A stretch of 64,000 bases of DNA from a virus, in IMG/VR virus record IMGVR_UViG_3300047444_000617, positions 1 through 64,000 of that record, one strand, 5' to 3'. The notes under the pieces are model-generated. The model was not told the origin of the DNA. It did not search any database and saw only the letters and a list, made by a program, of their open reading frames with translations. Shown here one piece after another: positions 5,347 to 63,402 of this stretch; the stretch's first letter is position 1, and every line of letters begins with the position of its first letter. The position numbers and the translations under genes were made by a program.

Positions 5347-5502
5347 ATGACAGCAGCAACCGCCCCTCGGGCGCTTCATACCCAGGCCCCCGGGCCCATG
5401 ACCGAACAAGAGTGGCTGGACCACTACCTCAGCCAGGCCCCCTACCTACCCGACGAGGCCGTGGACCACGTCCTCGCCATCTACCAACTGGAGCGTGTAT
5501 AG
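5347..5502 (+). CDS. Micro-protein with TEQEWL motif, paralogue of the 7179 gene
   Basis: 51 residues from ATG 5347. The C-terminal part reads MTEQEWLDHYLSQAPYLPDE and closely parallels the 34-residue product encoded at 7179-7283. It is an isolated plus-strand gene between the two integrase genes, ending in a terminator. Short proteins with TEEEW...AP...DE are common in Streptomyces genomes, with no function known to me. Its place suggests a recombination accessory or lysogeny role. It also holds the only reverse-strand in-frame CTTCATA word (5374-5380). Confidence 0.72.
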   Translation: MTAATAPRALHTQAPGPMTEQEWLDHYLSQAPYLPDEAVDHVLAIYQLERV

Positions 5503-5506
5503 GTAA

Positions 5507-5545
5507 GGAGTGGACCCGCCTCTCTGCATGGGGCGGGTCCACTCC
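5507..5545. terminator. Bidirectional hairpin terminator
   Basis: Perfect 14-base stem GGAGTGGACCCGCC with an 11-base loop, between the plus-strand micro-gene and the 3' end of the serine integrase gene. Confidence 0.85.
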
Positions 5546-5555
5546 TGTGTTCCGA

Positions 5556-7049
5556 TCACGCCGCTGTGAACACCGGCTCGATCCTGCTGGGGTCGAACCT
5601 CGCACCACGGGACTTGGCCGGATGCATGAGGGCGGTCACCAGCACCGTACGCACCACGTCACGCTGCCGCTCCAGCGACAACCCCGTCCAGCCGCTCTCC
5701 AGCACCGCCTTCTCGATAGGCTGCTCGGCCGACGTGATGAACAGAGCCTTGTCCGCCCGCAGAGCGTCGCGCTCCTGCTCCAAGGACTCCAGCGTGGTGG
5801 CGTAAATGGCCGCACGGATCTCGCGCTTGGACCACTTCGCCTTCAGCTCCGCAATGTCCTTCTCCACCAGCGTCAGCTCGTTGTCACGCCCCCAGGAGAC
5901 CGTCTTCTTGACGTCCCGCGCGGCCAACGACCGCTGCAGCGAACCCCACACGAGCTTGCGGACAAGCTCGTCCGTCGGGCCGCCAGAGATGGACAGCGCA
6001 CCGCACTGGTCGGCGAATCGCTTCTCGCACACATAGGCGTACGACCTCTGCTTGCCCCTCTTCTTGTCCCACACAGGAATGCCCCGCAGCTTGTACCCGC
6101 AGCGCCCGCAGCGCGCGATCCCGGACAGCAGGTACTTCGTCGTCGTGTCCCGGGATTCCTTGCGCTGCCGCTTTGCGATGGTGGCCATGACGGCTTCCCA
6201 CTTCTCGACGGTCATGATTGCGGGCCAGTCACCCATGACGTAGTTGCCGTCGTCGTCTTTCAGGGGCTCCCCCTGGTAGACGCGAATACCCGCGTTGCGG
6301 GCGCGCATGAGGAGCTTGCGCACGTTCTGCTGGGAGAAGGGCTTGCCGTTGTTCGGGCTGACTACCCCCGCCTCTTGCCAGCGGATCTGAATGGTGCCCA
6401 TCTTGTCGCCAGCGATGAAGGCATCGGCCCCGTCGTTGAGCACCTTGGCGGCTTTCGGATCCACCTTCTTGCGGTCGTCAGGATCCCAACCGTATGCAGG
6501 CGTTCCTCCGTGGAACTCCCCGTGCTCGGCCTTGCGCTTGTTCTCCCGCTTGATACGGCGAGAGGTGTCCTCCGAGGACTTGTTCGCGATGTTCACGAAC
6601 AGGCGCGCAGAGAAGCGGCCGTCAGCGGTGGTGAGGTCGAAGTTCTGGCCGGACAGCGTGTCGAAGACCAGCGGAATCTTGGTGGTCTCGTACACGTCGA
6701 TGACGCGCTCAAGGTCCCGTGGCTGGCGGAAGATGCGGTCGATGTCGTAACCGAGTATTCCCCCCAGCCGCTTGGCCTTGAGGTCTCCGACCATGCGCTC
6801 GAAGTCCTTGCGCTTCACGGTCCGCTGGAAGGCCGAGAGGTTGTTGTCCTCGTAGAAGACGACCCTCTCGGGGACGATGCCATGCCGCTCAGCGAGTCCA
6901 AGGATGTCCTCGCGCTGCTTCAGGACGCCCTTACGCTCCCGCTCCTCCGCCTCCTCCAAGGTCATCAAGCCCAGCTTGACCGCGCGGCGGATCTCCGTGA
7001 GGTCTGCGTCCGAGATGCGCAGGTAGCCGCCAACTGGTAGCAGTTCCAT
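5556..7049 (-). CDS. Large serine recombinase (serine integrase)
   Basis: 497 residues from ATG 7049; a longer upstream frame is rejected because it crosses the inverted repeats and the 7179 gene. The catalytic domain opens YLRIS (nucleophile Ser13) and contains GYDIDRIFRQPRDLERVID. The recombinase domain is followed by a zinc ribbon (ARCGRCGYKLRG and a later CEKRFADQCG) and a C-terminal coiled coil rich in Leu/Glu/Lys. It should integrate phage DNA by a covalent Ser-DNA mechanism without host factors. Compared with the usual YxRxSxxxQ opening, about 20 extra helical residues follow Ser13. Confidence 0.93.
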   Translation of the reverse strand: MELLPVGGYLRISDADLTEIRRAVKLGLMTLEEAEERERKGVLKQREDILGLAERHGIVPERVVFYEDNNLSAFQRTVKRKDFERMVGDLKAKRLGGILGYDIDRIFRQPRDLERVIDVYETTKIPLVFDTLSGQNFDLTTADGRFSARLFVNIANKSSEDTSRRIKRENKRKAEHGEFHGGTPAYGWDPDDRKKVDPKAAKVLNDGADAFIAGDKMGTIQIRWQEAGVVSPNNGKPFSQQNVRKLLMRARNAGIRVYQGEPLKDDDGNYVMGDWPAIMTVEKWEAVMATIAKRQRKESRDTTTKYLLSGIARCGRCGYKLRGIPVWDKKRGKQRSYAYVCEKRFADQCGALSISGGPTDELVRKLVWGSLQRSLAARDVKKTVSWGRDNELTLVEKDIAELKAKWSKREIRAAIYATTLESLEQERDALRADKALFITSAEQPIEKAVLESGWTGLSLERQRDVVRTVLVTALMHPAKSRGARFDPSRIEPVFTAA

Positions 7050-7063
7050 GCGAGAATACCCCC

Positions 7064-7351: not shown

Positions 7352-7357
7352 GTTGTT

Positions 7358-10028: not shown

Positions 10029-10238
10029 TTAGATATGAAGGCCAGCCTTCTTGAGCTGATTCTTGGTCTTGATCCAGCCGGGCGTTGCCCCGGTCAGACC
10101 GCAGACCGAAGCGACCTTGCCGTCAGGGGTCGTCCACTTGATGTGGTTGCCGCCAGTGATCTCCACCGTCCACTTCTGCTTCCGGGCGGCCTTGGCCACC
10201 TTCTCGATTTCCTTGTCCGCGCCCAGTCTCTGGGACAT
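10029..10238 (-). CDS. HicA-like small protein
   Basis: 69 residues from ATG 10238. The fold pattern is that of HicA-type mRNA interferases (small dsRNA-binding-like): a helix, then WTVEITGGNHIKWTTPDG with the conserved His after Gly-Asn, and a C-terminal helix. No HicB-like antitoxin is adjacent. It may act on RNA, or be a retained RNA-binding relative. The last codons before the stop are CTT CAT ATC, one of the repeated in-frame words. Confidence 0.62.
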   Translation of the reverse strand: MSQRLGADKEIEKVAKAARKQKWTVEITGGNHIKWTTPDGKVASVCGLTGATPGWIKTKNQLKKAGLHI

Positions 10239-14207: not shown

Positions 14208-15071
14208 TTGGCGGACAGTCCGACCGTGCTGAAGCGACGGCTCGGCGCCGAGCTGCGCAAGATGCGCCGTGCCCAGAACCTGACCACCGCGCAGGTTTCG
14301 AAGGCGCTGGGCTGGTCCGAGTCCAAGGTCAGCCGCATCGAGACGGGCAAGTCTCCGCTGTCTGACCAGGATGCCAAACTTCTGCTTGCGCAGTACGGGG
14401 TTGAGAAAGCCGAGGAAGTACGGCAGTTCATCTCTCTGGTGCGCAAGAGCCGACAGAACGGTTGGTGGCACTCCTTCGGGGATGCCCTGCCCGAGTGGTT
14501 CAAGCCCTACCTAGGGTTCGAGACGGACGCGGCGTCGATCTGGACGTATCAGAACGAGCTGGTGCCTGGCCTGCTGCAGACCGAGAGGTACGCCCAGGCG
14601 GTTATCCGTTCGACAGAGGTGAGCTTCTCCTCCGAAGAGGTGGAGACTCGCGCAAGTGCACGCGTACAGCGCCAGGACATCCTGACCTCCGACAACGCTC
14701 CCAAACTCTGGGCGGTCCTCAACGAGGCGGTGATCCGTCGGGTTGTTGGCTCACCTGTCATCATGCAGGAGCAGTTGAATGCCCTGGCGGACGTGGCGTA
14801 CTCGCTCCCGAACGTCACGGTCCAGGTGCTGCCATTCGACGCCGGGGCCCATGTCTCGATGGGCTACAGCTTCTCCTACCTGTCCTTCGAGGATGTACCC
14901 GGCTCCATCGTCTACTCGGAAGGGATCACGAGCGGCACGTACTTCGACAAGCCATCCGACCTGAGCCGTCACGAGGATATGTTCCAGCGGCTGGTCGCCG
15001 CGTCCGAGCGGCCCGAGAAGTCCATCACCATGATCAGAAACATCGCAGAGGAATTCAGCCATGCAGGGTAA
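14208..15071 (+). CDS. XRE-family regulator with DUF5753 domain
   Basis: 287 residues from TTG 14208, chosen because GGGAGG lies 7 bases upstream; longer GTG starts exist. Residues about 10-65 are a lambda-type HTH (QVSKALGWSESKVSRIETGK). The rest matches the DUF5753 domain (YQNELVPGLLQTERYAQAVI, VLPFDAGAH, YFDKPSDLSRHEDMF). These regulators abound on Streptomyces chromosomes, paired with DUF397 proteins as here. On a phage it may act as a lysogeny repressor or interfere with host developmental regulators. Confidence 0.88.
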   Translation: MADSPTVLKRRLGAELRKMRRAQNLTTAQVSKALGWSESKVSRIETGKSPLSDQDAKLLLAQYGVEKAEEVRQFISLVRKSRQNGWWHSFGDALPEWFKPYLGFETDAASIWTYQNELVPGLLQTERYAQAVIRSTEVSFSSEEVETRASARVQRQDILTSDNAPKLWAVLNEAVIRRVVGSPVIMQEQLNALADVAYSLPNVTVQVLPFDAGAHVSMGYSFSYLSFEDVPGSIVYSEGITSGTYFDKPSDLSRHEDMFQRLVAASERPEKSITMIRNIAEEFSHAG

Positions 15072-15261
15072 GCCCGACCTCGTATTCGTCAAGAGCAGCT
15101 TCAGCAACGGAACGGCCGAGTGTGTCGAGGTCGCCAAGAAGGCCGATGGCGGCCGTGTCGTCCGCGACTCCAAGAACCCCAAGGGTGCGACGCTCGACTT
15201 CACGGAGGGCGAGTGGTCCGCGTTCATCAAGGCCGCGCAGGCCGGAGAGTTCGACAACTGA
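15061..15261 (+). CDS. DUF397 protein, partner of the XRE regulator
   Basis: 66 residues from ATG 15061, overlapping the regulator by 11 bases. The core KSSFSNGTAECVEVAK, VRDSKNPKGATLDFTEGEWSAF matches DUF397. In Streptomyces such proteins are encoded beside XRE-DUF5753 regulators, and the pairs behave like regulator/antagonist or toxin-antitoxin modules. A terminator follows at once. Confidence 0.88.
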   Translation: MQGKPDLVFVKSSFSNGTAECVEVAKKADGGRVVRDSKNPKGATLDFTEGEWSAFIKAAQAGEFDN

Positions 15262-15489: not shown

Positions 15490-15953
15490 CGCCACGATCC
15501 TGTCATCGCGCCGTGGACGTCGGCCTCCCGGTAGGTGGCGGACTTGAGGATCTTGCCGTCCGCACGCCGGAGCACCTCCCCGTCCGGGCCGATCTTGCTC
15601 ATGTTGGAGCGGTGGACCTCGGCGAAAACCGCCTCCAGGGGGATGTCGAGGAGGTCGGCGGTGCCGTAGATGACGTACAGCAGGTCGGCCAGTTCCTTGG
15701 CCAGCGCCTCCAGGCTGCTCGACTTCCCCCCGTCCAGCGACTCATCGACGATGTTGCCGATGCCGTAGGCGAGGAGTTCGGCGACCACCTCGTTCCACTC
15801 CTCCTGGATCAGGCCCGCGCGCAGGGCGATGAGGGCGTCCCTCTCCTTGCCGGACCGTTCGACGAAGCGCTTCTCTCCCACCGCCCGGTGCCACTCGCGC
15901 AGCGCCTTCATGGGGCGGTGGGGCTGGATATGAAGCAGGGTGCGGATGGTCAC
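15486..15953 (-). CDS. MazG-like nucleotide pyrophosphohydrolase
   Basis: 155 residues from GTG 15953, with CAGGAGAG upstream and a GTGA overlap with the preceding stop. The all-alpha NTP-pyrophosphohydrolase pattern is visible: RAGLIQEEWNEVVAELLAYG, then KELADLLYVIYGTADLLDI, with the paired EExxE and ExxD metal ligands. Such enzymes hydrolyse nucleoside triphosphates to monophosphates and may adjust nucleotide or alarmone pools in infected cells. Codons 6-8 carry CTT CAT A. Confidence 0.8.
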   Translation of the reverse strand: MTIRTLLHIQPHRPMKALREWHRAVGEKRFVERSGKERDALIALRAGLIQEEWNEVVAELLAYGIGNIVDESLDGGKSSSLEALAKELADLLYVIYGTADLLDIPLEAVFAEVHRSNMSKIGPDGEVLRRADGKILKSATYREADVHGAMTGSWR

Positions 15954-16707: not shown

Positions 16708-17205
16708 TCAGTCGGCGAGGATGTCGCCGAGGTCGCCGGGGTCGACCGCCATGGGCAGGCGGCCGTCGTCGAAGAGGGTGATCCCGGCCAGGGTGTAGGC
16801 GCGGTCGACCAGTTGGGCGCACTGCAGGCGGTCCGCCCGGCTGATTCGCTTGTTGATGGTGGGGAACCACAGGCCGAAGAACCGCAGGCCCAGCGCGGCG
16901 TCGTCGACCCAGTTGTAGGGCACGCCCTTGCCGCCGTTGGCCTGGGTGAAGCCGACCGCTACGTCCCAGATCTTCTCCCGCGTGCTGAGCGGGAGGACGG
17001 TATGAAGGTTGTACTTGGCCTTCGGGTACCGCGAGACATGGCTGAAGCGGGCGCCACCGGGCTGGGCCTCGACGATGATTCCGCGCGGGCCGACGATGAA
17101 GGCGTGGTTGTAGCGGCTGAATGTCAGCAGCCGGATGGCCCAGGGGATGATCCCCTTGGTGGCGGTGACGCCGAAGGAGCCGATGGGAGGGTAGTCAGCA
17201 ACCAT
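16708..17205 (-). CDS. YiiX/NlpC-P60-like cysteine hydrolase
   Basis: 165 residues from ATG 17205. It reads as a permuted papain-fold hydrolase: a His in YNHAFIVGPRGIIVEAQPGG, later PYNWVDDAALGLRFFG, and a Cys in DRLQCAQLVDRAYTLAG. Such proteins cleave amide or ester bonds, often in cell wall or lipid contexts. There is no signal peptide. The order His-before-Cys is the permuted arrangement. A host-modifying or virion enzyme role is inferred. Confidence 0.7.
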   Translation of the reverse strand: MVADYPPIGSFGVTATKGIIPWAIRLLTFSRYNHAFIVGPRGIIVEAQPGGARFSHVSRYPKAKYNLHTVLPLSTREKIWDVAVGFTQANGGKGVPYNWVDDAALGLRFFGLWFPTINKRISRADRLQCAQLVDRAYTLAGITLFDDGRLPMAVDPGDLGDILAD

Positions 17206-17500
17206 CCTGGCCGTCCTTCTCCTCCGGCTCGACCGGCTCGTCGACCTTGACGGCCGGGCGGGCGCCCATGGCGTCGTACAGGCGGAAGTAGTCGCCGATC
17301 TGGCCGCCGAGGAAGCCGCTGTACCGGTTCTTGCCGTACGGGCGGCTGTTCCAGGTGGCGAACGGGTTGATCGGGCCGTAGGGGTAGCCGTCGTCGTCAC
17401 GCTCGACGACGGTGGTGACCGACTTGTCTGTCTCCTGCCAGTCCCCGTTGCTGTCCTTCTCGCTGTGAACCACGGTGGTGGTGGTCGTCTTACGCGCCAC
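17195..17500 (-). CDS. Hypothetical protein
   Basis: 101 residues from ATG 17500. Polar N-terminus (MARKTTTTTVVHSEKDSNGD), then DDGYPYGPINPFATWN. It overlaps both neighbours by about 11 bases. No family recognised. Confidence 0.6.
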   Translation of the reverse strand: MARKTTTTTVVHSEKDSNGDWQETDKSVTTVVERDDDGYPYGPINPFATWNSRPYGKNRYSGFLGGQIGDYFRLYDAMGARPAVKVDEPVEPEEKDGQDGC

Positions 17501-17690
17501 TGTCTTCCTCCAGGTTGTATTTGCCGTAGAAGTCGATGTGCAGGTTGTCGTTGTTCTCCGCGCGGTCGAGCCACCTCTTGGCGAAGACCTCCCGGGAGTA
17601 GAAGAAGGTCTTCGCGGTCCAGGTGCCGTCCTTGTTGATCAGCACCCGGACCTTCCACAGGTGGTTGTCCCTAGCGGTCTTCACCGGCAC
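17490..17690 (-). CDS. Small hypothetical protein
   Basis: 66 residues from ATG 17690. Beta-rich with VRVLINKDGTWTAKTFFYS. It contains NLHID encoded CTG CAC ATC, an exception to the CTT CAT A habit seen in most other Leu-His-(Thr/Ile) sites. Confidence 0.6.
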   Translation of the reverse strand: MPVKTARDNHLWKVRVLINKDGTWTAKTFFYSREVFAKRWLDRAENNDNLHIDFYGKYNLEEDSGA

Positions 17691-17901
17691 CGCCGGGCTC
17701 GGTATGAAGGCCGCTGGGGACGTACTGCTCGATCTCCATGAACGGTGTGGCCAGAGCGGTGGCGATGCCGCCGTAGATGCTGTCCTCGCCCTCCTCGGTC
17801 AACTGGTCGTGGGTGGCGATGAACAGTGAGGTCAGGTCCCGGACGTTGACGTAGTGCTCTCCGTCGGGGCCTTGGAAGTAGCGCAGCGCTTCGGTGGTCA
17901 T
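17671..17901 (-). CDS. Small hypothetical protein
   Basis: 76 residues from ATG 17901, with CAGGAGAACTGC upstream, the same ribosome-site string that precedes the RNA ligase at 26929. It contains DGEHYVNVRDLTSLFIATHD. Function unknown. Confidence 0.62.
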   Translation of the reverse strand: MTTEALRYFQGPDGEHYVNVRDLTSLFIATHDQLTEEGEDSIYGGIATALATPFMEIEQYVPSGLHTEPGGAGEDR

Positions 17902-17916: not shown

Positions 17917-19140
17917 TCAGAGCCAGACGCGGTACTCGGAGGTGACGCGTCCCTTGTCCGGGTTGACGAAGTGCAGACGCTGGGAAGGGTCGCCGGTGGC
18001 AGCCACGAACTCGTGGGCGTAGATGTTGTCCGACTCCGGGCTGCCGGTCATGAAGACGGAACCACCGTTGGCCAACTGCAGTTGCATGGCCTGGTGGTAG
18101 TGGCCGATGTACAGATCGCGGAATTCGGGGAGCACGCCGGAGGCCCACTGGTTGGCCTTGCGCAGGATGCCGTACGCGGGGATGTTGCCGCCGAAGGACT
18201 TGATCTCGTCGCCGTGGATGGCCATCGCCTTGTAGTTGCCGATGGTGAAGTGCTGGTACCAGTCGCCGGAGGTCTGGAACTTCGTCAGCCGGGGCTCGTC
18301 GGCCAGCCGCTCGCGCACGATGTTGTAGACCATGCGGTCGACGTTGTCGGAGGCCTTGATGCCGTCGCCCTTACGTCCGAGGCGGCCGTGGTTGCCGTAC
18401 TCGGCGACGACCTCGACCTCCTCGTACATCGCAAGGGCCCGACGGATGGTGTACAGCATCAGGTCGGCGACGTCGAACATCTGCTCGTAGAGCGTGCCGT
18501 CGAGTTCCCACACCTGGCCGGGGAAGATGGACACGCCCTCGACCATGTCACCGGTGAACAGCAGGACAGCCTTGTCGACAGGGTGGTCGGCGCGCTGGAT
18601 CTCGGTGATCGAGTGCGCCTTGTCGATGTACTTCTCCACCCGGCGCCGCATGATCTGCCGGTCGTAGGTCTCGGTCTGCTTACCGCCCTGCCAGTCCGTC
18701 AGGTGCCACAGGGCAACCTCAGAGTTCTTGGGTCGGTCGAGCAGTACCGGAGGCCCCTCGTAGGGGGTCTCGCCGACATAGCGGGCCGCATCGGTGGCCG
18801 CGCGGTAGACGGCGTCGATGTACTCGTCGCCCCGCGCCTTGGCCTTCTTGTAGGCGGTGAACAAGCGGCGGTTGTCGGCCTCCAGGGCGGCGATGCGCTC
18901 CTGGGGGTCGTCGTCCTGGCCGTCGGCCACTGCCTCACGCTCGCCCTCTTCGGGCTGGGTATGAAGCGGCTGGACCCTCTTGTCCCACCCGTTGGCGTTG
19001 CGCCAGCGGCGGACGGAGGTCTCGGTGGTGGTCACACCGAGGCGGACCAGTTCGGAGGCCGCCAGGGAGTGGGGAGCGAATCCCATCAGGATCTCGCGCA
19101 CCCAATCCTTGTTCGCGGCTACCTCGGGGAGTGTGGTCAA
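17917..19140 (-). CDS. Calcineurin-like metallophosphoesterase
   Basis: 407 residues from TTG 19140, chosen for GAGAGG upstream and the divergent promoter region beyond it. N-terminal residues about 15-50 look like an HTH (SELVRLGVTTTETSVRRWRN). The phosphoesterase blocks follow in order: ALWHLTDWQGG, LLFTGDMVEG, VAEYGNHGRLG, AIHGDE and IGHYHQ, the two-metal site of SbcD/Mre11-type and related enzymes. It may be a nuclease or nucleotide phosphodiesterase; an HTH plus phosphoesterase fusion is typical of phage enzymes of this type. Confidence 0.85.
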   Translation of the reverse strand: MTTLPEVAANKDWVREILMGFAPHSLAASELVRLGVTTTETSVRRWRNANGWDKRVQPLHTQPEEGEREAVADGQDDDPQERIAALEADNRRLFTAYKKAKARGDEYIDAVYRAATDAARYVGETPYEGPPVLLDRPKNSEVALWHLTDWQGGKQTETYDRQIMRRRVEKYIDKAHSITEIQRADHPVDKAVLLFTGDMVEGVSIFPGQVWELDGTLYEQMFDVADLMLYTIRRALAMYEEVEVVAEYGNHGRLGRKGDGIKASDNVDRMVYNIVRERLADEPRLTKFQTSGDWYQHFTIGNYKAMAIHGDEIKSFGGNIPAYGILRKANQWASGVLPEFRDLYIGHYHQAMQLQLANGGSVFMTGSPESDNIYAHEFVAATGDPSQRLHFVNPDKGRVTSEYRVWL

Positions 19141-20193: not shown

Positions 20194-20247
20194 AATGCGG
20201 GCGGGATGAGTTTAGACGAAGGTCTACAACCGCCATTTAGACCTTGC

Positions 20248-20318
20248 TCCCCGACCTGGGTTCGAACCAGGAACCTACGGATTAACAGTCCGTTGCTCTG
20301 CCAGTTGAGCTATCGGGG
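20248..20318 (-). tRNA. tRNA-Asn (GUU anticodon)
   Basis: The minus strand folds as a cloverleaf: acceptor CCCCGAT pairs with GTCGGGG (one G-T pair), anticodon arm ACGGA-CTGTTAA-TCCGT with anticodon GTT, and T-arm CCTGG-TTCGAAC-CAGG. Discriminator A; CCA not encoded. It is the last tRNA of a four-tRNA set interrupted by an endopeptidase gene. Confidence 0.93.
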
Positions 20319-20324
20319 ATTGCG

Positions 20325-20405
20325 TACCCAAGGTGGGACTTGAACCCACACGCCTTTCGGCGCCGCTTTTGAGGCGGCTGACTGTGCCAATTCGTCTACT
20401 CGGGC
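20325..20405 (-). tRNA. tRNA-Leu (CAA anticodon)
   Basis: A class II tRNA of 81 bases with a long variable arm (GCCGAAAGGC). Acceptor GCCCGAG pairs with CTTGGGT (two wobble pairs); the anticodon loop CTCAAAA gives CAA, reading UUG. UUG is rare in high-GC hosts and is used as a start codon by several genes here. Discriminator A. Confidence 0.9.
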
Positions 20406-20466
20406 GGGGCCGCGCGAACCCCTCGGTCGGATCGGGTCGATCCGCGCGGCGTTTCCTTCGTGAATC

Positions 20467-21129
20467 CTACTTCACCGTGTAGCGCCCGTAGTAAACGGAG
20501 TGGGTCCAGGGCTTGTAGAGGTTGACTCCCCTGCCCGGCTTTTCTGCCTCAAGCCAGGTGTGGGAATTGACGTAGATCCCGACGTGGTAGACGTACCCAC
20601 GCGCGTCGTGGACGAAGAAGAGGTCCCCGGGCTGCGGGGTCCTCACGTGCTGGCTGTGCCGGTACTGGTCCTCGGCGACGCGGGAGACGGACTTCCCCAG
20701 ACGCGCGAGCGTGTACTGGGTGAATCCCGAGCAGTCGAAGCCCCTGGACGGCGAGGTGCCGCCCCACACATAGCGAACGCCCCGGTAGGCCTCGCCCCTG
20801 GCCACGATCTTCTGGCCGGAGGTCTGCCTGTGCTTGGGCTTGGTGACCGGCTTGTGCTTGGTTACCGGCTTGGGCACGGTCTTGGTCGGGGCGGAGCGGG
20901 TTATGTAGATCCGCTCGCCCGGGTAGATGCGGTTGGGGTTGGCCAGGTGGTTGAGGGCAGCCAGGTGCTGCCAGGAGGTGTGGTGCCTGTAGGCGATGCC
21001 ACCGAGGGTGTCCTCGGCGTGAACGGTGACGTACGTGGACTGGGGTACTTGCGCCTGCGCGCTGGACGTCGCGAGCGGGGAAAGCACCAGTGTTGCGGCG
21101 ATCAGAAGTCCGGTGATCGTCTTCTTCAT
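20467..21129 (-). CDS. Secreted LysM plus NlpC/P60 endopeptidase
   Basis: 220 residues from ATG 21129. Residues 1-27 are a classical signal peptide (MKKTITGLLIAATLVLSPLA, then SSAQA). A LysM domain (about 33-77: VHAEDTLGGIAYRH, NPNRIYPGERIYI) is followed by a Lys/Pro linker and an NlpC/P60 domain with catalytic Cys in GFDCSGFTQY, then HVGIYV and the His/Asn-type partner. It should cut peptidoglycan stem peptides outside the membrane. Unusually, it sits between tRNA genes; lysis, or remodelling of the host wall in lysogens, are both possible. Confidence 0.9.
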   Translation of the reverse strand: MKKTITGLLIAATLVLSPLATSSAQAQVPQSTYVTVHAEDTLGGIAYRHHTSWQHLAALNHLANPNRIYPGERIYITRSAPTKTVPKPVTKHKPVTKPKHRQTSGQKIVARGEAYRGVRYVWGGTSPSRGFDCSGFTQYTLARLGKSVSRVAEDQYRHSQHVRTPQPGDLFFVHDARGYVYHVGIYVNSHTWLEAEKPGRGVNLYKPWTHSVYYGRYTVK

Positions 21130-21372: not shown

Positions 21373-21377
21373 GTGAG

Positions 21378-49643: not shown

Positions 49644-50033
49644 TTACTTCGTGGCGGTCGGAGTTACGTCCGTCGTGTCCTTCGGGCACGGAATGGTCAC
49701 GTGCGCGGAGTGGGTGTACTTGAGTCCGTTCACGACCGCGTAAGGCGTGTCCGTGGATGTGGGCGCCGGGGACGGACCGACCACGAAAGTCACCTTGCAC
49801 AATCCGCCGGGATTCTGCGTCGCAGGTGCCTTTACGTACTTGATGACCGTGCGCGTAGGTTCCGGCGAGACGTCCGAAGAGAAATCCGATACGGATCTGG
49901 TGGTCTCCTGTACAGAAATTCCGATATGAAGTCCGCCAGAAGTCTGGTTCGGAATGCTAGCGATTCCGACTGCGGGAATGGCGACGAGAACTGCTGCGGC
50001 TGCTGCGGCCTTCAGGCCGTGGGGTATGGGCAT
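49644..50033 (-). CDS. Secreted protein
   Basis: 129 residues from ATG 50033. A signal peptide (GLKAAAAAAVLVAIPAVGIA) precedes a Thr/Ser/Pro-rich domain with two Cys (GGLCKVTF, TIPCPKD). Possibly surface-exposed; function unknown. Contains CTT CAT ATC. Confidence 0.68.
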   Translation of the reverse strand: MPIPHGLKAAAAAAVLVAIPAVGIASIPNQTSGGLHIGISVQETTRSVSDFSSDVSPEPTRTVIKYVKAPATQNPGGLCKVTFVVGPSPAPTSTDTPYAVVNGLKYTHSAHVTIPCPKDTTDVTPTATK

Positions 50034-50248: not shown

Positions 50249-51790
50249 TTACTCTCCCTGTTCGTTGAAGAAAGTTGGTACATCGACGACCTCAGCGTCG
50301 ATGAATCCGCTCGACTGCTCGATCATCCGGTCCGCTGACATCGGACGGTCGAGCGTTGTCATCTGCTCCCCCGCGTCCCGCCCGAAGATCCGGCTGATCA
50401 TCCCCGCCTGGGCGCCGTTCCCCTTGGCTTCCAGTTTCACGGAGAAGCCCTCCTGCTCCAGTTCGGTCTTGACCTTGACCAGTTTCTGAAGCCGGTCGAT
50501 CTCGCCGGACAGGTTCGGATCCGCGTATCCGCCGGTCATGTCCTCGACCATCTTCATGAAGAGCACCCGCTGCGCCTGCATCTCGATGAGCGAGTTCTGC
50601 AGCGACTGCATCTGCTGCTTGCTCTTCACCTGTACCGGGATGTCGTACGCGCAGTTGCTGTGCTGGTCGTACGCCGGGCACTTCGAGGACAGGAAGCAGG
50701 AGGAGCACTGCCGCATGGACTGGCTGCGCACCGTGACCAGGGGGACGTCACGTTCCTTGTTGAGCCCGTCCTCGGGGTCGGTGTAGGTCTCCTTCTCCTG
50801 CACCAGGCCGATGACCGGCAAGTTGGTACGCGGCCGGTCCTTCCTGGGCATGGGAGTTGATACGCCGTTGAGCGGTTCGGAGTCCGCCGTACCAACTTCA
50901 CCCCCCTGCAATTGAGCGAAACCGGAAAGTAGCCCGGAGGGGGAGGTAGTAACTGCTTCGGGTGAGTTCGGGCGGTGCTGCTCGATGGAGGCCGCCAACT
51001 GCTGCCACGACCAGATGGTGAAGCGCAGGACCTCGTCGTTGTCGCCGTCCTCGATCTTGTCGGCGTCGAAGCCCGCTTCTATGAATAGCGTGCGGTGCCT
51101 CTTTCGTGCCTGCTCCTTGTACTTCTTCGGGTAGCGCTTCAATTCCCGGCCGGTCCACACAATGGTGTCCCCGTATTGGCTGGGGGAAAGCCAGGAGGTC
51201 GACGCCACGCTGTCCCAGGTGACGGCTGCCATTTCCGCTGGCTTCGTCATGGCGACGCCGTGGAGCAGCGTGCCGTATTTCCTGGTGATCTCGTTGAGGA
51301 CCGGTGTGAGATTCCGTCCGTCGAGATCCGTCTGGGTAACTCCGACGCGCTTGTATCGCTGGGCGAGGCGGTCGAGTTCTTCGACTCCCCATTCCGCGTG
51401 CCATATGGGAAGGAATTTGTCTTCCGGGATGTCCTCCCAGAAGTCCTCCCGCATTGCGGCTATCCATTCGCGTCCGAGAACGACCGCGTCGAACTCGGAC
51501 ACCATATGAAGCGAGTCGATGTTCTGCTGGACGAACGCCATGTAGTGCGCGGCGATTTCCTTCAGTTCAGCGACGGAGTACTTGTCGTCCTCGGCCTTGT
51601 TCACCGTGTAGGCGCCGGAGTCCAGGAACACCTTCTGGTTGGGCAGGTAGTGGTCCTGGATCAGCCAGGGCCTGGAGAACTTGGTGCGTCGCCGCAGCCC
51701 CATGTACGACAAGGAGACGTTCTCCACGCCTTCCTCGGCCAGCATCTTCCGCCAGCCTGGAATCTCAGAGCCTCCCAGAAAGAGGTGCAC
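50249..51790 (-). CDS. TGT/DpdA-like protein with C-terminal Cys cluster
   Basis: 513 residues from ATG 51790. The N-terminal part (about 1-270) reads as a TIM-barrel of the tRNA-guanine transglycosylase/DpdA type: HLFLGGSEIP, VSLSYMGLRRR, VFLDSGAYTVNK (candidate nucleophile Asp57) and RVGVTQTDLDGRNLTPVL. DpdA enzymes insert 7-deazaguanines into phage DNA. After a Ser/Pro linker, residues about 370-513 hold QCSSCFLSSKCPAYDQHSNC, a likely metal centre, then long helices. No 7-deazaguanine synthesis genes are seen in this window, so the substrate is open. Confidence 0.6.
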   Translation of the reverse strand: MHLFLGGSEIPGWRKMLAEEGVENVSLSYMGLRRRTKFSRPWLIQDHYLPNQKVFLDSGAYTVNKAEDDKYSVAELKEIAAHYMAFVQQNIDSLHMVSEFDAVVLGREWIAAMREDFWEDIPEDKFLPIWHAEWGVEELDRLAQRYKRVGVTQTDLDGRNLTPVLNEITRKYGTLLHGVAMTKPAEMAAVTWDSVASTSWLSPSQYGDTIVWTGRELKRYPKKYKEQARKRHRTLFIEAGFDADKIEDGDNDEVLRFTIWSWQQLAASIEQHRPNSPEAVTTSPSGLLSGFAQLQGGEVGTADSEPLNGVSTPMPRKDRPRTNLPVIGLVQEKETYTDPEDGLNKERDVPLVTVRSQSMRQCSSCFLSSKCPAYDQHSNCAYDIPVQVKSKQQMQSLQNSLIEMQAQRVLFMKMVEDMTGGYADPNLSGEIDRLQKLVKVKTELEQEGFSVKLEAKGNGAQAGMISRIFGRDAGEQMTTLDRPMSADRMIEQSSGFIDAEVVDVPTFFNEQGE

Positions 51791-51853: not shown

Positions 51854-52534
51854 TTACTTCTTGAGCGGCTTGACGGCGCTCGCGGGGAACAGGCCGGGCT
51901 GGGTGACGCGCGGCTTGCGGGCGGCCGTCGACTTCGGCTTGACCGCCTTGGGGCCCTCGCTGGCGGCCAGACCGAACTGCTGTGGGGCGCGGACCTGGCT
52001 CGGGCCGAACAGACCCTTCTGCACGGCGCGCTGCGGCGCCTTGGGAGCAGCCGGTGCCGGAGCCGACGGCTTGGCGGGGGCGGAGTACGGCTTGTCGAAC
52101 TCGCGCAGGTCCTGCACCTGCGAGGGGTGCGGGGCGGCCATCGGTGCGCTGGTGTGGGTGCTCGGCCGGTTGAAGGCGTTGTGGAAGTCCTCCCACGCGC
52201 CGCCCGACGGCTTGCTCTGCGCCTGGATGGAGTCCATCCGGGCGTTGAAAGTATGAAGGAGGTCGGAGGCTGCGGCGCTGTGCTTGGCCTGCCAGGTGTC
52301 GGCGGAGCGGCTGAACGACTTGCCGACCTTCTGCACGTCGCCGCTGGGGGTCGAGGAGGGGGCCTGGGTGGGCGCCGGGGAACCCTTCGGGCCCGGTCGG
52401 CGGCTGGGGGTCCTGGCAGGGTTCTCCAGGGCGCTCAGGCGGTCCTCGACGGAGCGCTTGCCGTGGAACTGCAGCGGGTGCAGGTAGCGGTCGCGGAACT
52501 GGGTGGCTATGGAGTGGAAAGCGAAGGCGCTCAT
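51854..52534 (-). CDS. Pro/Ala-rich, probably disordered protein
   Basis: 226 residues from ATG 52534. Low-complexity Pro/Ala/Ser/Lys with short conserved islands (SFSRSADTWQAKHSAAASDL, QKGLFGPSQV, QPGLFPASAV). A linker or virion-internal protein is plausible. Overlaps the membrane gene by 4 bases. Confidence 0.64.
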   Translation of the reverse strand: MSAFAFHSIATQFRDRYLHPLQFHGKRSVEDRLSALENPARTPSRRPGPKGSPAPTQAPSSTPSGDVQKVGKSFSRSADTWQAKHSAAASDLLHTFNARMDSIQAQSKPSGGAWEDFHNAFNRPSTHTSAPMAAPHPSQVQDLREFDKPYSAPAKPSAPAPAAPKAPQRAVQKGLFGPSQVRAPQQFGLAASEGPKAVKPKSTAARKPRVTQPGLFPASAVKPLKK

Positions 52535-54391: not shown

Positions 54392-54778
54392 TTACATCTT
54401 GAGGGCGGCGCGGAGCCGGGCCTCCTCGGCCTGCCGCTGCATGGCGGCGCCCGCCATGATCATCTGCTGCTGGGTGCGCTGGGCGGTCTCCATGGCCTGG
54501 ATGTCCTTCTGCACCACGGAGGCCGCACCGTAGATGTCGTCGAAGGTGGCGCCTCGGTCCAGCACCAGGTCGAGGGCGATGGCGAGGTTGGCGTCCGCCA
54601 CGACGGCGCCGTCCTTGCCGACGACGACGAGGAACGCGGTGGTGACGCGGGTGCCCGTCTCCTCGGCGGTGGGCGGGTTGTCCTCGGCCATCTTGGCCAG
54701 GGCCTGCTTCTGCTCGTCGGTGAGGTCGGTATGAAGCGGGGTGCTGGTGGTCTGGCCGAGGATCGGGATGTCAGTCAT
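54392..54778 (-). CDS. Hypothetical helical protein
   Basis: 128 residues from ATG 54778. Long helices (VVQKDIQAMETAQRTQQQMI, MQRQAEEARLRAAL) suggest a coiled-coil assembly protein. Possibly virion-associated; unproven. Confidence 0.64.
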   Translation of the reverse strand: MTDIPILGQTTSTPLHTDLTDEQKQALAKMAEDNPPTAEETGTRVTTAFLVVVGKDGAVVADANLAIALDLVLDRGATFDDIYGAASVVQKDIQAMETAQRTQQQMIMAGAAMQRQAEEARLRAALKM

Positions 54779-55395: not shown

Positions 55396-56394
55396 TTACT
55401 TGCCGGTGGCCAGGTAGCGGCCGAGCAGGACGTAGGAGTCCCCGCCCGTCGCGCCCTGGATCGCGACCTGCTTGCCGTTGATGACGACCTGGCCCGCCTT
55501 GGCGTGCGTGTAGCCCAGGGCGGCGTTGGCCGGACCGCCGACCGCGACGACGACGTCACCGGCAGCCAGAGCCGCCTTGGCCACGTCCACACGGCCGGTC
55601 GAGACGGCACCCTTGGGCTGGAAGGCGTCGGTTGCCGCCGCTGCCGTCAGGGTGTCGACAGCCTCGCCGAAGATGACCATGGTGTACGCCTTCGTGGGAG
55701 CAGGGGTAGGTGCGGGAACGGGCTTGGGGGTCACGGGGATGACCACCGGCGGCTTGTTGATGACCGGGACCGGGACGGGCTTCGGCTTGGGAGCCGGAAT
55801 GGCCAGGGCGGCCCAGGTATGAAGGTCACCGTTGAACATGTCGTTGTCCAGGCCGCCGACGATGCCGTACTGGTGCAGCGTCCACACCTTCCACGGCCCG
55901 ATCCTGGGGTGGCCCGCCGGGTTGGCCGGGTCGGCGATCCACAGCGGGTAGGACGTCAGGACGGCCTTGTTGGCCGCCGAGCACGCGGCGTAGACGTTGG
56001 TCATCCAGTACTCGTTGACGTACAGGATGGGAGAGGCACCGGTCTTGGCCTTCACGTGCGCCAGCCACCGCAGTGCGTACTCCGCCCGCTGGGTCCACGA
56101 GCCCTGATCCCACTCCAGGTCCAGCACCAGCACATCGCCGATGACGGCCTTGGCCTTGGACAGGAAGTAGTCGGCTTCCTTGATCGGGTCGTTGGCGGGG
56201 TGCGCGAAGTGGTAGTGCCCGATCGCCTTCTTCGCCTTGCGCGCCGCAGCCACGAACGTGTCGTGGTCCGGGTCGTGGAAGGTCAGGCCCTCGGTCGCCT
56301 TGGCGACGACGAAGGCGTTGCTGCTGCTGGCCACCGCAGCGAGCACCGTCTTGGAAGCGTTGACGTTCGCGACGTCGACACCGTGGAGAGACAT
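55396..56394 (-). CDS. GH25 lysozyme (endolysin)
   Basis: 332 residues from ATG 56394. The GH25 muramidase domain (about 1-195) opens HGVDVANVN (catalytic Asp), with GHYHFAHP and DVLVLDLEWDQG (Asp and Glu pair), then WIADPANPAGHP. A Pro/Lys/Val linker (about 200-240) leads to a C-terminal region of about 90 residues that may bind cell wall. It cleaves peptidoglycan glycan strands for lysis. No signal peptide, so a holin or another export path is needed. Confidence 0.9.
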   Translation of the reverse strand: MSLHGVDVANVNASKTVLAAVASSSNAFVVAKATEGLTFHDPDHDTFVAAARKAKKAIGHYHFAHPANDPIKEADYFLSKAKAVIGDVLVLDLEWDQGSWTQRAEYALRWLAHVKAKTGASPILYVNEYWMTNVYAACSAANKAVLTSYPLWIADPANPAGHPRIGPWKVWTLHQYGIVGGLDNDMFNGDLHTWAALAIPAPKPKPVPVPVINKPPVVIPVTPKPVPAPTPAPTKAYTMVIFGEAVDTLTAAAATDAFQPKGAVSTGRVDVAKAALAAGDVVVAVGGPANAALGYTHAKAGQVVINGKQVAIQGATGGDSYVLLGRYLATGK

Positions 56395-57110: not shown

Positions 57111-58364
57111 TCAGAACAACCTCTGCTGGCCCGGGTGGACCTCGGTATGAAGCCCGTTGCCCTTTCCGTAGGAGTTCAGGGAGGAGTCGTGGTTGTCTCC
57201 CCGTCGGCGCTTTTCCTCGCTCCACTGCGCGGACTGCATGTTGGTCAGCGAATTGAGGCCGCGCTCCGTCATCACCTTGCGGGCGACGTGGTCGTGGAAG
57301 GCGTGGATTCCCTTGATGCCCATGTAGGCCTCCTGGGACTCGCTACCCTTCTTGCTCTCCAGGTGCGGGGCGAAAGCGCCACCGCCGGAGTGCGTGTCGG
57401 ATACCCAGAACTGCGACGAGCCGTGGGGGTCGACCCACGAGTTGTGATAGGCGGAGACCTTCTCACCGGCTGTCGGCTTCCACGCGTCGGACAACTTCTC
57501 GCCGCCCAGGACCTTGTGCGTGACGTCGATGGCCAGCGCGTGGTTTCGCGGGTAGCCGTTGGCCGGGTACGCGCGGGTGTCCCCTTCCTTCTTCTCCAGT
57601 TTCGTGAACTGCTTGCCGCTGCGGGCGGTGACGGTCTTCTCGACCTTGTCCTCGCGCGGGACGTAGTAGTCGGGGTGGTAGTGGTACTCCTCGCCGGTGC
57701 GGCCCGACTTCGCCCACTGAATCGCGTGGGTGGCTGCCTCGTCGTTGGGGTAGACCGCCCTGCCCGTCTCCTTGTCCGGCCGCACGAACACGTTCTGCGG
57801 GGACGTGATGGCGTTGGCGGCGGCCTGCACACCGAACGGGACGCCGTTGTTCTTCGCCGACGTCTTCAGCCGCGCACGCGGGCTCAGGGAGCCGTTGCGG
57901 GTGTGGTCCTCGGCCGGGCTGTAGAAGGAGTCGTGGTGCCCGCCCTCGTGGTCGTACGCGCGGTCGACCTGGGCACCCAGAGCGCGGTGAGCCGACTCGG
58001 GGGTGACGCCGAACTTCGCGGCCGAGCGCAGCACGCGGGCCTGCTCGTGCGGCGCGAAGTCCTCCCACCGGCGATTGACCGGCATCATGTCGCGCGTGGG
58101 GTTCATGGTGTGCTGGCCGTGCCACACGTCCGACCCCTCCGGCCCGGCCAGTTCCATCTGGCCGTGCAGGTTGGGAGCCTTGTCGGTGTTGCCCATGAGC
58201 CGGTACGACTGCCGTGGGCTGGCGGCGGCCCCCGGCTTGTCCTGGATGGTCTGGAAGCGCTCGGGGTGCGCGCCCTCGAAGGACACGCGCTTGACGGTGG
58301 CGTCCTTGACCGTCTTGTTGTAGACGCGGGTCTCGGCCGCCTTCTCCGCTGGGGTCTTGGCCAT
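57111..58364 (-). CDS. Large hypothetical protein with His/Asp-rich motifs
   Basis: 417 residues from ATG 58364. Contains DRAYDHEGGHHDSFYSPAED, EEYHYHPDYYVPRED and NHALAIDVTHKVLGG, clusters of His that may bind metal, and a C-terminal HAFHDHVARKVMTERGLNSL. Charged and hydrophilic, possibly an internal virion protein. Family unknown. Confidence 0.65.
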   Translation of the reverse strand: MAKTPAEKAAETRVYNKTVKDATVKRVSFEGAHPERFQTIQDKPGAAASPRQSYRLMGNTDKAPNLHGQMELAGPEGSDVWHGQHTMNPTRDMMPVNRRWEDFAPHEQARVLRSAAKFGVTPESAHRALGAQVDRAYDHEGGHHDSFYSPAEDHTRNGSLSPRARLKTSAKNNGVPFGVQAAANAITSPQNVFVRPDKETGRAVYPNDEAATHAIQWAKSGRTGEEYHYHPDYYVPREDKVEKTVTARSGKQFTKLEKKEGDTRAYPANGYPRNHALAIDVTHKVLGGEKLSDAWKPTAGEKVSAYHNSWVDPHGSSQFWVSDTHSGGGAFAPHLESKKGSESQEAYMGIKGIHAFHDHVARKVMTERGLNSLTNMQSAQWSEEKRRRGDNHDSSLNSYGKGNGLHTEVHPGQQRLF

Positions 58365-60838: not shown

Positions 60839-61441
60839 TCAGGCCTGGGCCAGGATCTCGTGCACCTTGGTATGAAGGTCCTGGAGGTCCCCGTCGTTGA
60901 CCAGGTGGGAGTCGAACCACTTGTCGGGCAGTTCCTTCTCCGACTTGTGGTCGTTGACGGCGCCGTAGCCGGGCCGGGTGATCTTGATTAGCAAGCCCAA
61001 GCGAGAGTCGATGGCCTGGTGCTCGTTCTCGAACCGCAGGTCGGTGAAGACGTAGCGCTTGCTCTTGTCCAGGCCCTTAAATGCGGCCTCGACCCACACG
61101 TCCTGGCTGATCATCTCCCGGCCGACCTCGGTGCCCAGCACCTGCAGCATGCGGCGGATCTCGTCGTAGGTGCGCTTGGCGTCCTCCCAGCCGATCTCGT
61201 CCACGATCTCCTGCAGCCGGAAGTCCCGGCCGTAGGAGTCGGACAGGATGACGGGGTTGAGGACGTACAGGGCCTCGCGGAGGGTATCGGCGAAGGCGAC
61301 TCGCTCGTACCCGTACTCGGTCAGGATCCGGGCGACGGCGTCCTTGCCGGTTCCGGGGTATCCGTGGAGGCCGATGAAGCCGGGCAGCCACTCCAGGATG
61401 ACCTGGGGAAGCCTGTCGGTGGGGGAAAGCGTGGTGCTCAC
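60839..61441 (-). CDS. Deoxynucleoside monophosphate kinase
   Basis: 200 residues from GTG 61441 (GTGA overlap). P-loop LHGYPGTGKDAVARIL (27-34) and a layout like phage dNMP kinases (FADTLREALYVLNPVI, RRMLQVLGTEVGREM, YVFTDLRFENE). It should phosphorylate dNMPs for phage DNA synthesis, together with ThyX nearby. Confidence 0.82.
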   Translation of the reverse strand: MSTTLSPTDRLPQVILEWLPGFIGLHGYPGTGKDAVARILTEYGYERVAFADTLREALYVLNPVILSDSYGRDFRLQEIVDEIGWEDAKRTYDEIRRMLQVLGTEVGREMISQDVWVEAAFKGLDKSKRYVFTDLRFENEHQAIDSRLGLLIKITRPGYGAVNDHKSEKELPDKWFDSHLVNDGDLQDLHTKVHEILAQA

Positions 61442-61818
61442 TTGGTCTGGTCCTCTACTTCGATGGTGGTTGCGAGGGTGTTGTCCCTGATGTACTCGAC
61501 CATCAAGGGGATGGTCCACAGAGCCCGCCGGGCGGCGACGACCTGCTCGTTGCGCCGCTTCTCCATGCGCTGCAGGGTTTCGAACTGGCCCTTCCAGCGG
61601 CCGGTCATCCAGTCCGTCTGGGCGATCAGCGGGGTGACCTTGTCGATGAGGTTCCGGGCCTGGTCCTCCGTACTCCACCGCCGCTTCCGCTCGGCGATGA
61701 GTTCGTCGGTGGTGCGGTCGAGTTCGGCGCGCACGGCGATCAGCGCGTGGGCGGTGTACAGGAGGAGCCCGACGAATACGGCGGCGATCACCAGCGCGGT
61801 GATGGTTCCGGCGCTCAT
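61438..61818 (-). CDS. Membrane-anchored coiled-coil protein
   Basis: 126 residues from ATG 61818. One N-terminal membrane segment (ITALVIAAVFVGLLLYTAHA) then a charged helical region (ELDRTTDELIAERKRRWSTE). Might be a spanin-like or regulatory membrane protein. Confidence 0.62.
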   Translation of the reverse strand: MSAGTITALVIAAVFVGLLLYTAHALIAVRAELDRTTDELIAERKRRWSTEDQARNLIDKVTPLIAQTDWMTGRWKGQFETLQRMEKRRNEQVVAARRALWTIPLMVEYIRDNTLATTIEVEDQTK

Positions 61819-61994
61819 CGGTGCATCAGGCACCGCGCGGGCACATCCTTGACGGGCTGCCAGGACCACCAGGAGCAGGGGGCGGAGGTGCGTATCCACA
61901 CGCCCCCCACGAGGAGCGCACCGAGCGCGAGGCCCACCAGCGCACACGTTACGTAGAAGGGCAGTTCTCGGCGGAGTCTGCGGAAGCGGTTCAC
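61815..61994 (-). CDS. Small membrane protein
   Basis: 59 residues from GTG 61994 (GTGA overlap with ThyX). One membrane segment (VTCALVGLALGALLVGGVWI), then SAPCSWWSWQPV with Trp and two Cys outside. Function unknown. Confidence 0.62.
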   Translation of the reverse strand: MNRFRRLRRELPFYVTCALVGLALGALLVGGVWIRTSAPCSWWSWQPVKDVPARCLMHR

Positions 61995-62695
61995 GGGGCG
62001 ACCCTTCCCCAGCCCACGAAGGCCTGGTATGTCAGCGGGAAGTACTCGGCGAAGGCGGCTTCCATCTCCAGCGCCACCTTCTCGATCTCGTACTGCGGGA
62101 AAGAGGCGAAATGGGCGCCGGGGTTCTTGGTGCGCAGGGACAGGAAGTGCATCAGCGAGCGCGGGTTGCAGGTGGCGTAGAACGCGGTGTAGGTGCCGAC
62201 CGGCAGTACGTTGCGTGCGACCTCCTTGGCCACGCCCGCCTTCAGCATGCGTTGGTAGGAGGACCACGCGGCGCGGTAGACGCTCTCGTGCTCCCAGCGC
62301 GTGATGCCGAAGTGCTCGTGGGTGCCGGGGACGAACGTGTACTGGCCTGGCTTGCCCTCCTGCACCAGCGGGCGGTCGTGCGTCGGGACGTAGAAGTGAG
62401 GCTCCAGTTCCCGGTACCTGCCGGAGGTCTCGTTGTAAGACCACCCGGCCCTGTGCCTCATGAACTCCCGAGCCACGAAGATCGGGGCCTCGATGAGGAA
62501 CGACAGCGAGCCGTGCTCGAAGGGGCTGCCGTGCCGGTTCTCCATGAGGTAGTTGATCAGGCCCCCGGCCTCCCCCGACTCCGCCGCAGCGGAGCCGAGG
62601 GTGGACACGCGAGCCGCCTGGCAGATCTTCGCGTCGGACCCGGCCAGGTTGTCCAGGTCGAGCGTCGCGGAGAGGTCTGAGCGGAGGGTGGTCAC
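61991..62695 (-). CDS. thyX: Flavin-dependent thymidylate synthase
   Basis: 234 residues from GTG 62695 (GTGA overlap). The ThyX signature is present, RHRAGWSYNETSGRY near 80-94, with HGSPFEHGSLSFLIEAPIFV before it and CNPRSLMHFLSLR after. It makes dTMP from dUMP using FAD and methylene-tetrahydrofolate. Supplies phage DNA precursors with the nearby kinase. Confidence 0.95.
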   Translation of the reverse strand: MTTLRSDLSATLDLDNLAGSDAKICQAARVSTLGSAAAESGEAGGLINYLMENRHGSPFEHGSLSFLIEAPIFVAREFMRHRAGWSYNETSGRYRELEPHFYVPTHDRPLVQEGKPGQYTFVPGTHEHFGITRWEHESVYRAAWSSYQRMLKAGVAKEVARNVLPVGTYTAFYATCNPRSLMHFLSLRTKNPGAHFASFPQYEIEKVALEMEAAFAEYFPLTYQAFVGWGRVAP

Positions 62696-63402
62696 TTGGA
62701 CTTCACCACCGACTTCGGCGACTCGTCGTTCTTGAGGGTGGCCTTGAAGTAGGTACCGGCCGCGTCGTGGTAGACGACGACACCCTCGGGGTCCATGAAG
62801 CCCGGCGCGATCAGGGAGCCCTCGGACTCCAACGTATGAAGCGCCTCGTCGACTGCTTCGTTCAGCCACTTGCCGTCGATGACGGAAATGACCGGCACCA
62901 CGGTGACGATATCCGGGGCGGGCTTGGCCTTGGGGAAGGTCTGCAGGTAGTGCTCGGTGATCTCCGGGTCGTTCGAGTCGTACCAGCGCTGGGTGTTGAA
63001 CAGGGCGAAGCGCTTCTCGTCGAGCCCGTAGCCGGACTGGATGCCCTGGCCGAACCACTCGCCGTAGTGCTTGCCCTCGCCGAGCCCGGCCAAAGCGACG
63101 GCGTTCTCCCACACCCACGCAGCGAACTGGAAGTTGTCGTTGCCGGGGGTGAGCCAGCGGTTCCGGCTGCCCGCCCGGACGATGAAGCGCTCGTAGCGGT
63201 TGTCGGTCTCGTTGAACAGCGTGACACCGACTCCGGTCGTACCCTCCAGGTACTGGGGGTCCATCAGGGGGACGGCGTCGGGGAGCCGGGTGACCTCGAT
63301 CAGGCCGTTGGTGCCGTTGATCTTCTCGGTGATGACCACACGGCGGTGCAGTCGCGGGATGGGCCGGAACTTCGGGTAGTCGCTCGCCTTGAGGACGGTC
63401 AT
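62692..63402 (-). CDS. RNA ligase, Rnl2-like
   Basis: 236 residues from ATG 63402. Motif I VVITEKINGTNGLIEV (Lys27 adenylated), RNRWLTPGNDNF, GEWFGQGIQSGYGLDEKRFALF (motif IIIa region), DPEGVVVYH (IV) and YFKATLKND (V). The EKxxGTN core is typical of Rnl2-type ligases that seal nicks in duplex RNA. With the Rnl1-type ligase, two different RNA ligases serve this phage. Confidence 0.82.
   Translation of the reverse strand: MTVLKASDYPKFRPIPRLHRRVVITEKINGTNGLIEVTRLPDAVPLMDPQYLEGTTGVGVTLFNETDNRYERFIVRAGSRNRWLTPGNDNFQFAAWVWENAVALAGLGEGKHYGEWFGQGIQSGYGLDEKRFALFNTQRWYDSNDPEITEHYLQTFPKAKPAPDIVTVVPVISVIDGKWLNEAVDEALHTLESEGSLIAPGFMDPEGVVVYHDAAGTYFKATLKNDESPKSVVKSK

Follow-up and report, generated by a model that had tools for sequence, protein, structure and literature searches.

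A seven-nucleotide word translated in one reading frame across related phage genomes, and its set-wide switch between two clades

The contig, its genes and its relatives

The window analyzed here (64,000 bases) comprises bases 1-64000 of a 110,248-base virus contig with a GC content of 65%. Genes were called with our own codon-model caller, which predicted 166 genes and put about 157 of them on the minus strand; these calls are approximate, and the in-gene frame result given below is independent of start positions. Products encoded in the window include DNA polymerase A, a UvsX/RecA-like recombinase, ribonucleotide reductase, an SNF2-type helicase, DNA primase, a T4-type RNA ligase, a tyrosine integrase (4155-5231, minus strand), and a serine recombinase with Resolvase/Recombinase domains (5556-7049, minus strand). 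The integrase gene points to a temperate life style. Among named phages, Streptomyces phages BRock, Alone3, and their relatives come closest, with about 51% identity in DNA polymerase. The representative bacterial and archaeal genomes that were scanned for a host yielded no carrier.

RNA repair genes in the window code for a polynucleotide kinase-phosphatase, an RlaP nucleotidyltransferase, and the RNA ligase (25802-26929). A Streptomyces-type HTH-DUF5753 regulator lies at 14208-15261 (plus strand) and is followed by a small gene that is probably a DUF397 match. Genes for tRNA-Asn, tRNA-Leu(CAA), tRNA-Phe, and tRNA-Pro fall within 20246-21451 (minus strand), and a c-di-AMP (ydaO) riboswitch (21130-21269, minus strand) lies directly 5' of a LysM-NlpC/P60 gene (20467-21129). 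The riboswitch is phage carried and adjoins tRNAs in the relatives G001, G002, G013, and G014 as well. The plus strand of the record also holds CCTCCTGGTGTGGGG-type repeats, with several overlapping 12-mers present 9 times forward and 0 times in reverse (0.02 expected).

Relatives were drawn from 63 viral loci recovered by a helicase search, mostly metagenome contigs. Those at about 79 to 94% identity split in two according to a recurrent heptanucleotide. The C clade (G000 and G002-G005; five genomes, including this contig) carries 34 to 47 copies of CTTCATA and no CTTAATA, and the A clade (G001, G013, and G014) carries 29 to 40 copies of CTTAATA (0.1 expected) and 0 to 2 of CTTCATA. These counts were taken from near-complete or large contigs.

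Copies of the word and their reading frame

In the window, TATGAAG, the complement of the word, is found 19 times on the plus strand and 3 times on the minus strand (1.3 expected). An excess of TATGAAG had been reported in a preliminary description of this DNA; the excess stands, and its extent in the whole record is larger than was noted there (41 sense and 3 antisense copies, with about 1.8 forward copies expected under a second-order model). The two minus-strand matches at 21124 and 21778 fall at start codons followed by AAG (ATG AAG) and look accidental.

Most copies in the window are read in frame within minus-strand genes. Several lie close to gene starts, namely, at codon 6 of a 155-amino-acid (aa) gene (15929-15935), codon 6 of a 153-aa gene (28931-28937), codon 3 of a lipoprotein-like gene (31251-31257; MKRLHIY), and codon 14 of a 128-aa gene (54730-54736). 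Others are internal, at codon 66 of a 165-aa gene (17001-17007), codon 45 of a 394-aa gene (18960-18966), codon 130 of a 310-aa gene (24994-25000), codon 108 of the T4-type RNA ligase gene (26599-26605), codon 78 of a 498-aa gene (51505-51511), and codon 190 of a 332-aa gene (55818-55824). Copies near gene ends are found in a 76-aa gene (17703-17709), a 417-aa gene (57146-57152), the dNMP kinase gene (60871-60877), and, at the very end and reading RLHT followed by a stop codon, an 85-aa gene (30095-30101). The copy at 10034-10040 reads KKAGLHI followed by a stop codon at the 3' end of a gene for a small HicA-like protein and is kept there in all five C-clade genomes. Another is in frame in a gene that the caller missed (49925-49931; SGGLHIGIS), and further minus-strand copies lie at 52252-52258 (DLLHTFN) and 62835-62841.

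The preliminary description had stated that 18 of the plus-strand copies of TATGAAG read as in-frame CTT CAT A on the minus strand. Every plus-strand copy in a gene does so except the one at 24324, which is antisense to a plus-strand gene. Its observation that the word follows the coding strand was confirmed at 5374-5380 (plus strand), where CTTCATA is in frame in a small open reading frame (ORF) containing APRALHTQAPGP; G004 has a similar small ORF with the word (PAPLHTSAP).

Words within 60 nucleotides (nt) of start codons make up 36% of copies versus about 17% expected, an enrichment of about twofold. The late structural genes hold 6 words in about 26 kb, and the replication module holds 16 in about 20 kb, so that words are about four times sparser in the former. 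The genes between 31.3 and 49.9 kb are poorly conserved and lack words, which suggests that words accumulate slowly in resident genes.

As the preliminary description proposed, Leu-His-[Thr/Ile/Met] sites prefer the word, 34 of 41 such sites genome-wide being encoded as CTT CAT A. Shuffles that preserve proteins and codon usage gave a mean of 0.97 copies of CTTCATA (maximum, 4) versus 34 in genes; for CTTAATA in relative G001, the same procedure gave a mean of 0.22 (maximum, 2) versus 35. Other T-ending codon pairs are at 1.3 to 1.9 times expectation in the large genomes. Given the shuffle counts and this modest excess, amino acid use and codon use are both insufficient to explain the word. 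Judged from sequence, the earlier view that a nucleic acid word is under selection, as opposed to amino acids or codon usage, is well supported. Initial literature searches turned up no account of a word of this kind.

An ordinary codon-context bias, in which a T-ending codon precedes CAT and drift amplifies the effect, would have a precedent in relative G006 (loci L096-L100). This genome is without the full word and favors CAT in frame after T-ending codons (CTTCAT, 12 versus 0.10 expected; AGTCAT, 4 versus 0.07). CTTCAT as a shorter word in G006 was dropped because other NNT-CAT pairs are raised there too. In G000, however, only CTT-CAT-A shows the effect, with A following 34 of 35 CTT-CAT pairs, and other pairs of T-ending codons in the C clade are raised only 1.3- to 1.5-fold. 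The A clade, moreover, moved to CTT-AAT-A as a set, and the shuffles go far against a neutral context effect, so that we regard this explanation as extremely unlikely. A second relative without the full word, G015 (loci L173-L177), shows an in-frame excess of NNT-CTA, often before G (CTTCTA, 46 versus 1.9). In high-GC relatives, AGCT seems to be avoided across codon junctions, with GAACTG, GAGTTG, CAGTTG, and AAGTTG preferred, possibly as restriction-site avoidance.

In-gene copies in eight genomes fall 265 times in frame 0, 0 times in frame 1, and 2 times in frame 2. From codon usage computed after masking of the words, one expects about 0.04, 0.03, and 0.5 to 0.7 copies per C-clade genome in frames 0, 1, and 2, respectively; the two frame-2 copies are therefore within the chance number, and codon usage alone would favor frame 2, opposite to the observed frame 0. 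When homologous positions were grouped, 132 independent positions remained, of which 100 are in frame 0, none is in frame 1, 2 are in frame 2, 3 are antisense, and 1 is unclear; a further 22 lie outside called genes with an in-frame ORF, and 4 are of both kinds.

Among intergenic positions, an in-frame ATG or GTG with a Shine-Dalgarno (SD)-like motif lies within 8 codons in 14 of 27; the same test gave 1 and 0 in the two shifted frames and 6.8% at random intergenic positions. The resulting mini-ORFs include MRLHTYGGPC, MTRLNTCPRKGDHR, and MKTIRLHT, each followed by a stop codon. The in-frame starts and SD-like motifs just 5' of intergenic copies indicate that the word is positioned for translation.

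The frame result bears on a DNA-level reading in which the word is the target of a repressor that halts transcription elongation, as at the stoperators of Cluster A mycobacteriophages. Those sites number 20 to 30 per genome, are oriented with transcription, and differ in consensus between heteroimmune groups (PMC6550527). The present word resembles those of L5 and Bxb1 in being one of tens of short, asymmetric, transcription-oriented sites (41 sense to 3 antisense here) spread over the genome of a phage with an integrase, and in having group-specific variants, which there come with a cognate phage factor and here separate cleanly into C and A words. Stoperators, in contrast, are DNA sites for a repressor. 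A DNA site needs no single frame, mini-ORFs, or hairpin at fixed spacing; the copies here lie mostly inside genes, are translated, are locked to frame 0 (100:0:2 in frames 0, 1, and 2), and often precede an RNA hairpin. We therefore consider a stoperator unlikely.

The C-to-A switch and the downstream hairpin

Sites were compared between clades in 158 pairings of a C-clade site with an A-clade genome. In 113 of these the word has switched from C to A, in none is CTTCATA retained, and in 29 the His is retained with ordinary codons (such as TTG CAC or CTG CAC) and no word. Codon-level alignments place His in the C clade and Asn in the A clade at the same residue, as at 51505 (SLHMVSEF in the C clade and SLNMVSEF in the A clade), where 19 viral contigs were matched with any base allowed at the fourth letter and all carry C or A. 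Examples of His kept without the word in the A clade are FGLHTY in the primase and DLLHTF, the latter corresponding to the site at 52252, where LHT is written CTG CAC ACC. The preliminary description had held that relatives freely using CTGCAC would speak against selection of the word; CAC does occur at some A-clade sites, only in phages that have wholly moved to CTTAATA.

The switched sites, together with the sites at which His is kept without the word, imply that the nucleotide word is the selected unit and that the residue either changes with it or the site disappears. A selected peptide motif, Leu-[His/Asn]-[Thr/Ile], serving for example as a protease site, would fit the invariable frame 0. 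Such a signal does not predict the strict codons observed, with T in the third position of both the first and the second, and is contradicted by A-clade proteins that keep LHT in ordinary codons, the word being gone; its probability is close to negligible and the lowest of the readings weighed here.

The more distant outgroups G016, G017, and G008 (helicase identity, about 55 to 65%) carry CTTCATA in frame 0, which makes C the ancestral state. This matters for a possible artifact. The codon TTA is practically absent from these phages (0 to 1 per genome in G000-G005, G013, and G014), and CTTAATA contains a stop codon in frame 1 and the avoided TTA in frame 2, so that its confinement to frame 0 would be trivial if A were ancestral. 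The outgroups rule this out, and CTTCATA is free of such a restriction.

An 86-nt tRNA-His is found in the C-clade genomes G002-G004 and is absent from the A clade, G000, and G005. As a partner of the word, this tRNA was rejected, since G000 and G005 both have the word. A complementary guide RNA was likewise rejected: coding-strand TATGAAG is almost absent elsewhere, the remaining C-clade genomes having a single reverse copy each, and that in G004 is the copy in its plus-strand gene.

RNA downstream of the words is unusually stable. The minimum free energy (MFE) of the 35 nt downstream averages -12.3 kcal/mol versus -8.2 kcal/mol at random in-gene positions, and upstream of the words the MFE shows no extra stability relative to controls. 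With one representative per position cluster (n = 153), 34 words are followed at exactly +4 nt by the start of a stem of 5 bp or more (2.8 expected), and starts anywhere from +3 to +5 bring the number to 44 (5.6 expected); the copy at 62835-62841, for example, is followed by a 6-bp stem from +4. The hairpin at +4 is a strong tendency and not a rule. Because the stems are conserved in sequence, their covariation is uninformative, and Rfam covariance models matched only the tRNAs and the c-di-AMP riboswitch, with no match at the words. Counted from the first base of a CTT codon in the ribosomal P site, the first pair of the stem is 12 nt away, at about the mRNA entry of the ribosome.

A heptamer, a short spacer (5 nt from the A-site codon), and a stem-loop at a preferred distance resemble -1 programmed frameshift signals, and the word with its hairpin might accordingly direct frameshifting, hopping, or drop-off to yield alternative products. 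Unlike those heptamers, neither CTTCATA nor CTTAATA is slippery in the -1 direction, and a -1 shift on CTTAATA would meet TAA at once. Stops in the +1 frame after the word come no earlier than in controls, and the proteins continue in frame 0. Programmed recoding is, on this evidence, very unlikely.

The hairpin could also belong to a single-stranded DNA element, such as a nick site, a primase site, or a Chi-like recombination word. HUH nickases cut CTTG^ATA-like sites adjoining hairpins, so that the word bears some likeness to rolling-circle nick sites, and the strand bias of 41 to 3 is of the kind expected. The word nevertheless tracks the coding strand in the plus-strand gene, and the frame lock and the mini-ORFs would be unaccounted for; we judge this reading highly improbable.

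Among the mechanisms listed in the preliminary description, the one that survives is an mRNA processing or pausing signal, specifically a translation-coupled one. A protein-binding site on DNA, a methylation site, and a recombination word fall away, as none predicts the strict frame, the in-frame upstream starts, or the constant spacing of the hairpin. That description did not mention the hairpin, the mini-ORFs, or the sister word CTTAATA.

Candidate factors and proposed mechanism

Each gene family was screened for residues invariant in the C clade and fixed differently in the A clade. Two genes are outliers, with fixed differences at 9 of 39 residues (10029-10238, minus strand) and 8 of 33 (17490-17684, minus strand); medians are near 0.01 for families with two or three A-clade members. 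The second gene encodes a 64-aa protein with a predicted beta-beta-alpha-beta fold and no significant fold match.

The gene at 10029-10238 encodes a 69-aa protein with a predicted dsRBD/HicA-like fold, one His that is conserved in all aligned members, and, in the A clade, an insertion of about 14 residues. It matches Pfam HicA_toxin at 14 to 15.5 bits (E, 0.02 to 0.05), below the curated cutoff of 27, and phrog_353 (annotated "toxin"). Its structure model has a helix, three strands, and a helix (H-E-E-E-H), for which the top Foldseek match is 1whz (probability, 0.99), with the HicA structures 6g26 and 4p78 lower and a best E value of 0.032. No HicB neighbor was recognized beside the gene. Across loci, the type of this protein agrees with the word in the flanking DNA, with exceptions: some A-type loci have few copies of CTTAATA (L143 has none in sense) and 1 to 2 of CTTCATA. 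Homologues are also present in G006 and G015, which are without the full word, and this counts against the candidate. Since the change from C to A is a single evolutionary event, the association of gene with word cannot be proved from the switch. We infer from these sequence comparisons that the HicA-like protein is the leading candidate factor.

HicA mRNA interferases (COG1724) are likewise small single-domain proteins, and those studied are ribosome independent (PMC11594946). A HicA-like factor of that kind would thus leave the frame rule unexplained. Rae1, in contrast, has been described as a ribosomal A-site endoribonuclease (PMC6613710), and an A-site mechanism such as that of Rae1/YacP and RelE-type nucleases would make a site frame dependent. 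A Pfam scan of 64 conserved proteins of these phages, some of the small proteins among them, recognized no ribosome-dependent nuclease of the RelE, PIN/NYN, or any other type, and the present word, unlike the sites of those enzymes, is joined to a hairpin.

The word and hairpin might instead be read by an RNA-binding repressor or a ribosome-independent RNase, for example, a HicA-like one, with the frame as an indirect constraint. The hairpin at +4, the HicA-like fold, and the C/A divergence of the HicA-like protein are all in keeping with this, and phage T4 offers a precedent in RegB and RegA, which act on many of its mRNAs by way of a short RNA word that commonly lies close to translation starts (PMC3014915). 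RegB recognizes GGAG/U mostly in initiation regions, and RegA recognizes initiation sites rich in A+U; descriptions of the two mention no frame lock and no tie to a 3' hairpin. Under this reading, the 100:0:2 distribution of frames and the in-frame mini-ORF starts would be left without a reason. We consider this reading rather unlikely.

DNA signals (an operator, stoperator, methylation site, nick site, or Chi-like word) are disfavored because they predict neither the frame nor the mini-ORFs. A decoding-site signal aided by a hairpin accounts for the frame, the mini-ORFs, and the strict codons together, and the evidence points to a signal that is read on mRNA during translation and not to a DNA word. 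Our preferred reading, held tentatively and at a little short of an even chance, is a ribosome-positioned mRNA site for phage posttranscriptional control, probably acting by cleavage or by a programmed pause, with the HicA-like protein as the best candidate factor.

The element would have the core CTT-CAT-AYC (CTT-AAT-AYC in the sister clade), often with a hairpin 4 nt later, and would be read by an in-frame ribosome. With CTT in the P site and CAT or AAT in the A site, the hairpin would stand at the mRNA entry and may hold the ribosome in a pause, its A site occupied by a defined codon. A factor, most likely phage encoded and perhaps the small HicA-like protein acting as an RNA binder, would act at the paused ribosome, so that the mRNA is cut or translation is blocked. 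The result would be posttranscriptional control of about a quarter of the phage genes, among them the replication module, tail genes, and mini-ORF leaders. The factor would have changed its specificity a single time, at position 4 (C to A), with every site either following or being lost; in its evolution the word behaves much as stoperators do.

A wider reading, possible but doubtful, is that of a posttranscriptional counterpart to the stoperators, in which a factor on translating ribosomes, at a frame-locked word with a hairpin, silences or times the phage's own lytic genes and perhaps excludes relatives, and in which groups escape each other by a genome-wide switch of the word. If true, this would be a genome-wide signal that is translated in one frame and switches at about 40 loci as one set; to our knowledge, such a frame-locked, set-switching signal has no match in phage gene control or immunity. 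The His/Asn switches in dozens of proteins would also amount to a natural experiment on how far an RNA word can override protein sequence, and the C/A switch of the word offers a clear handle for finding the factor.
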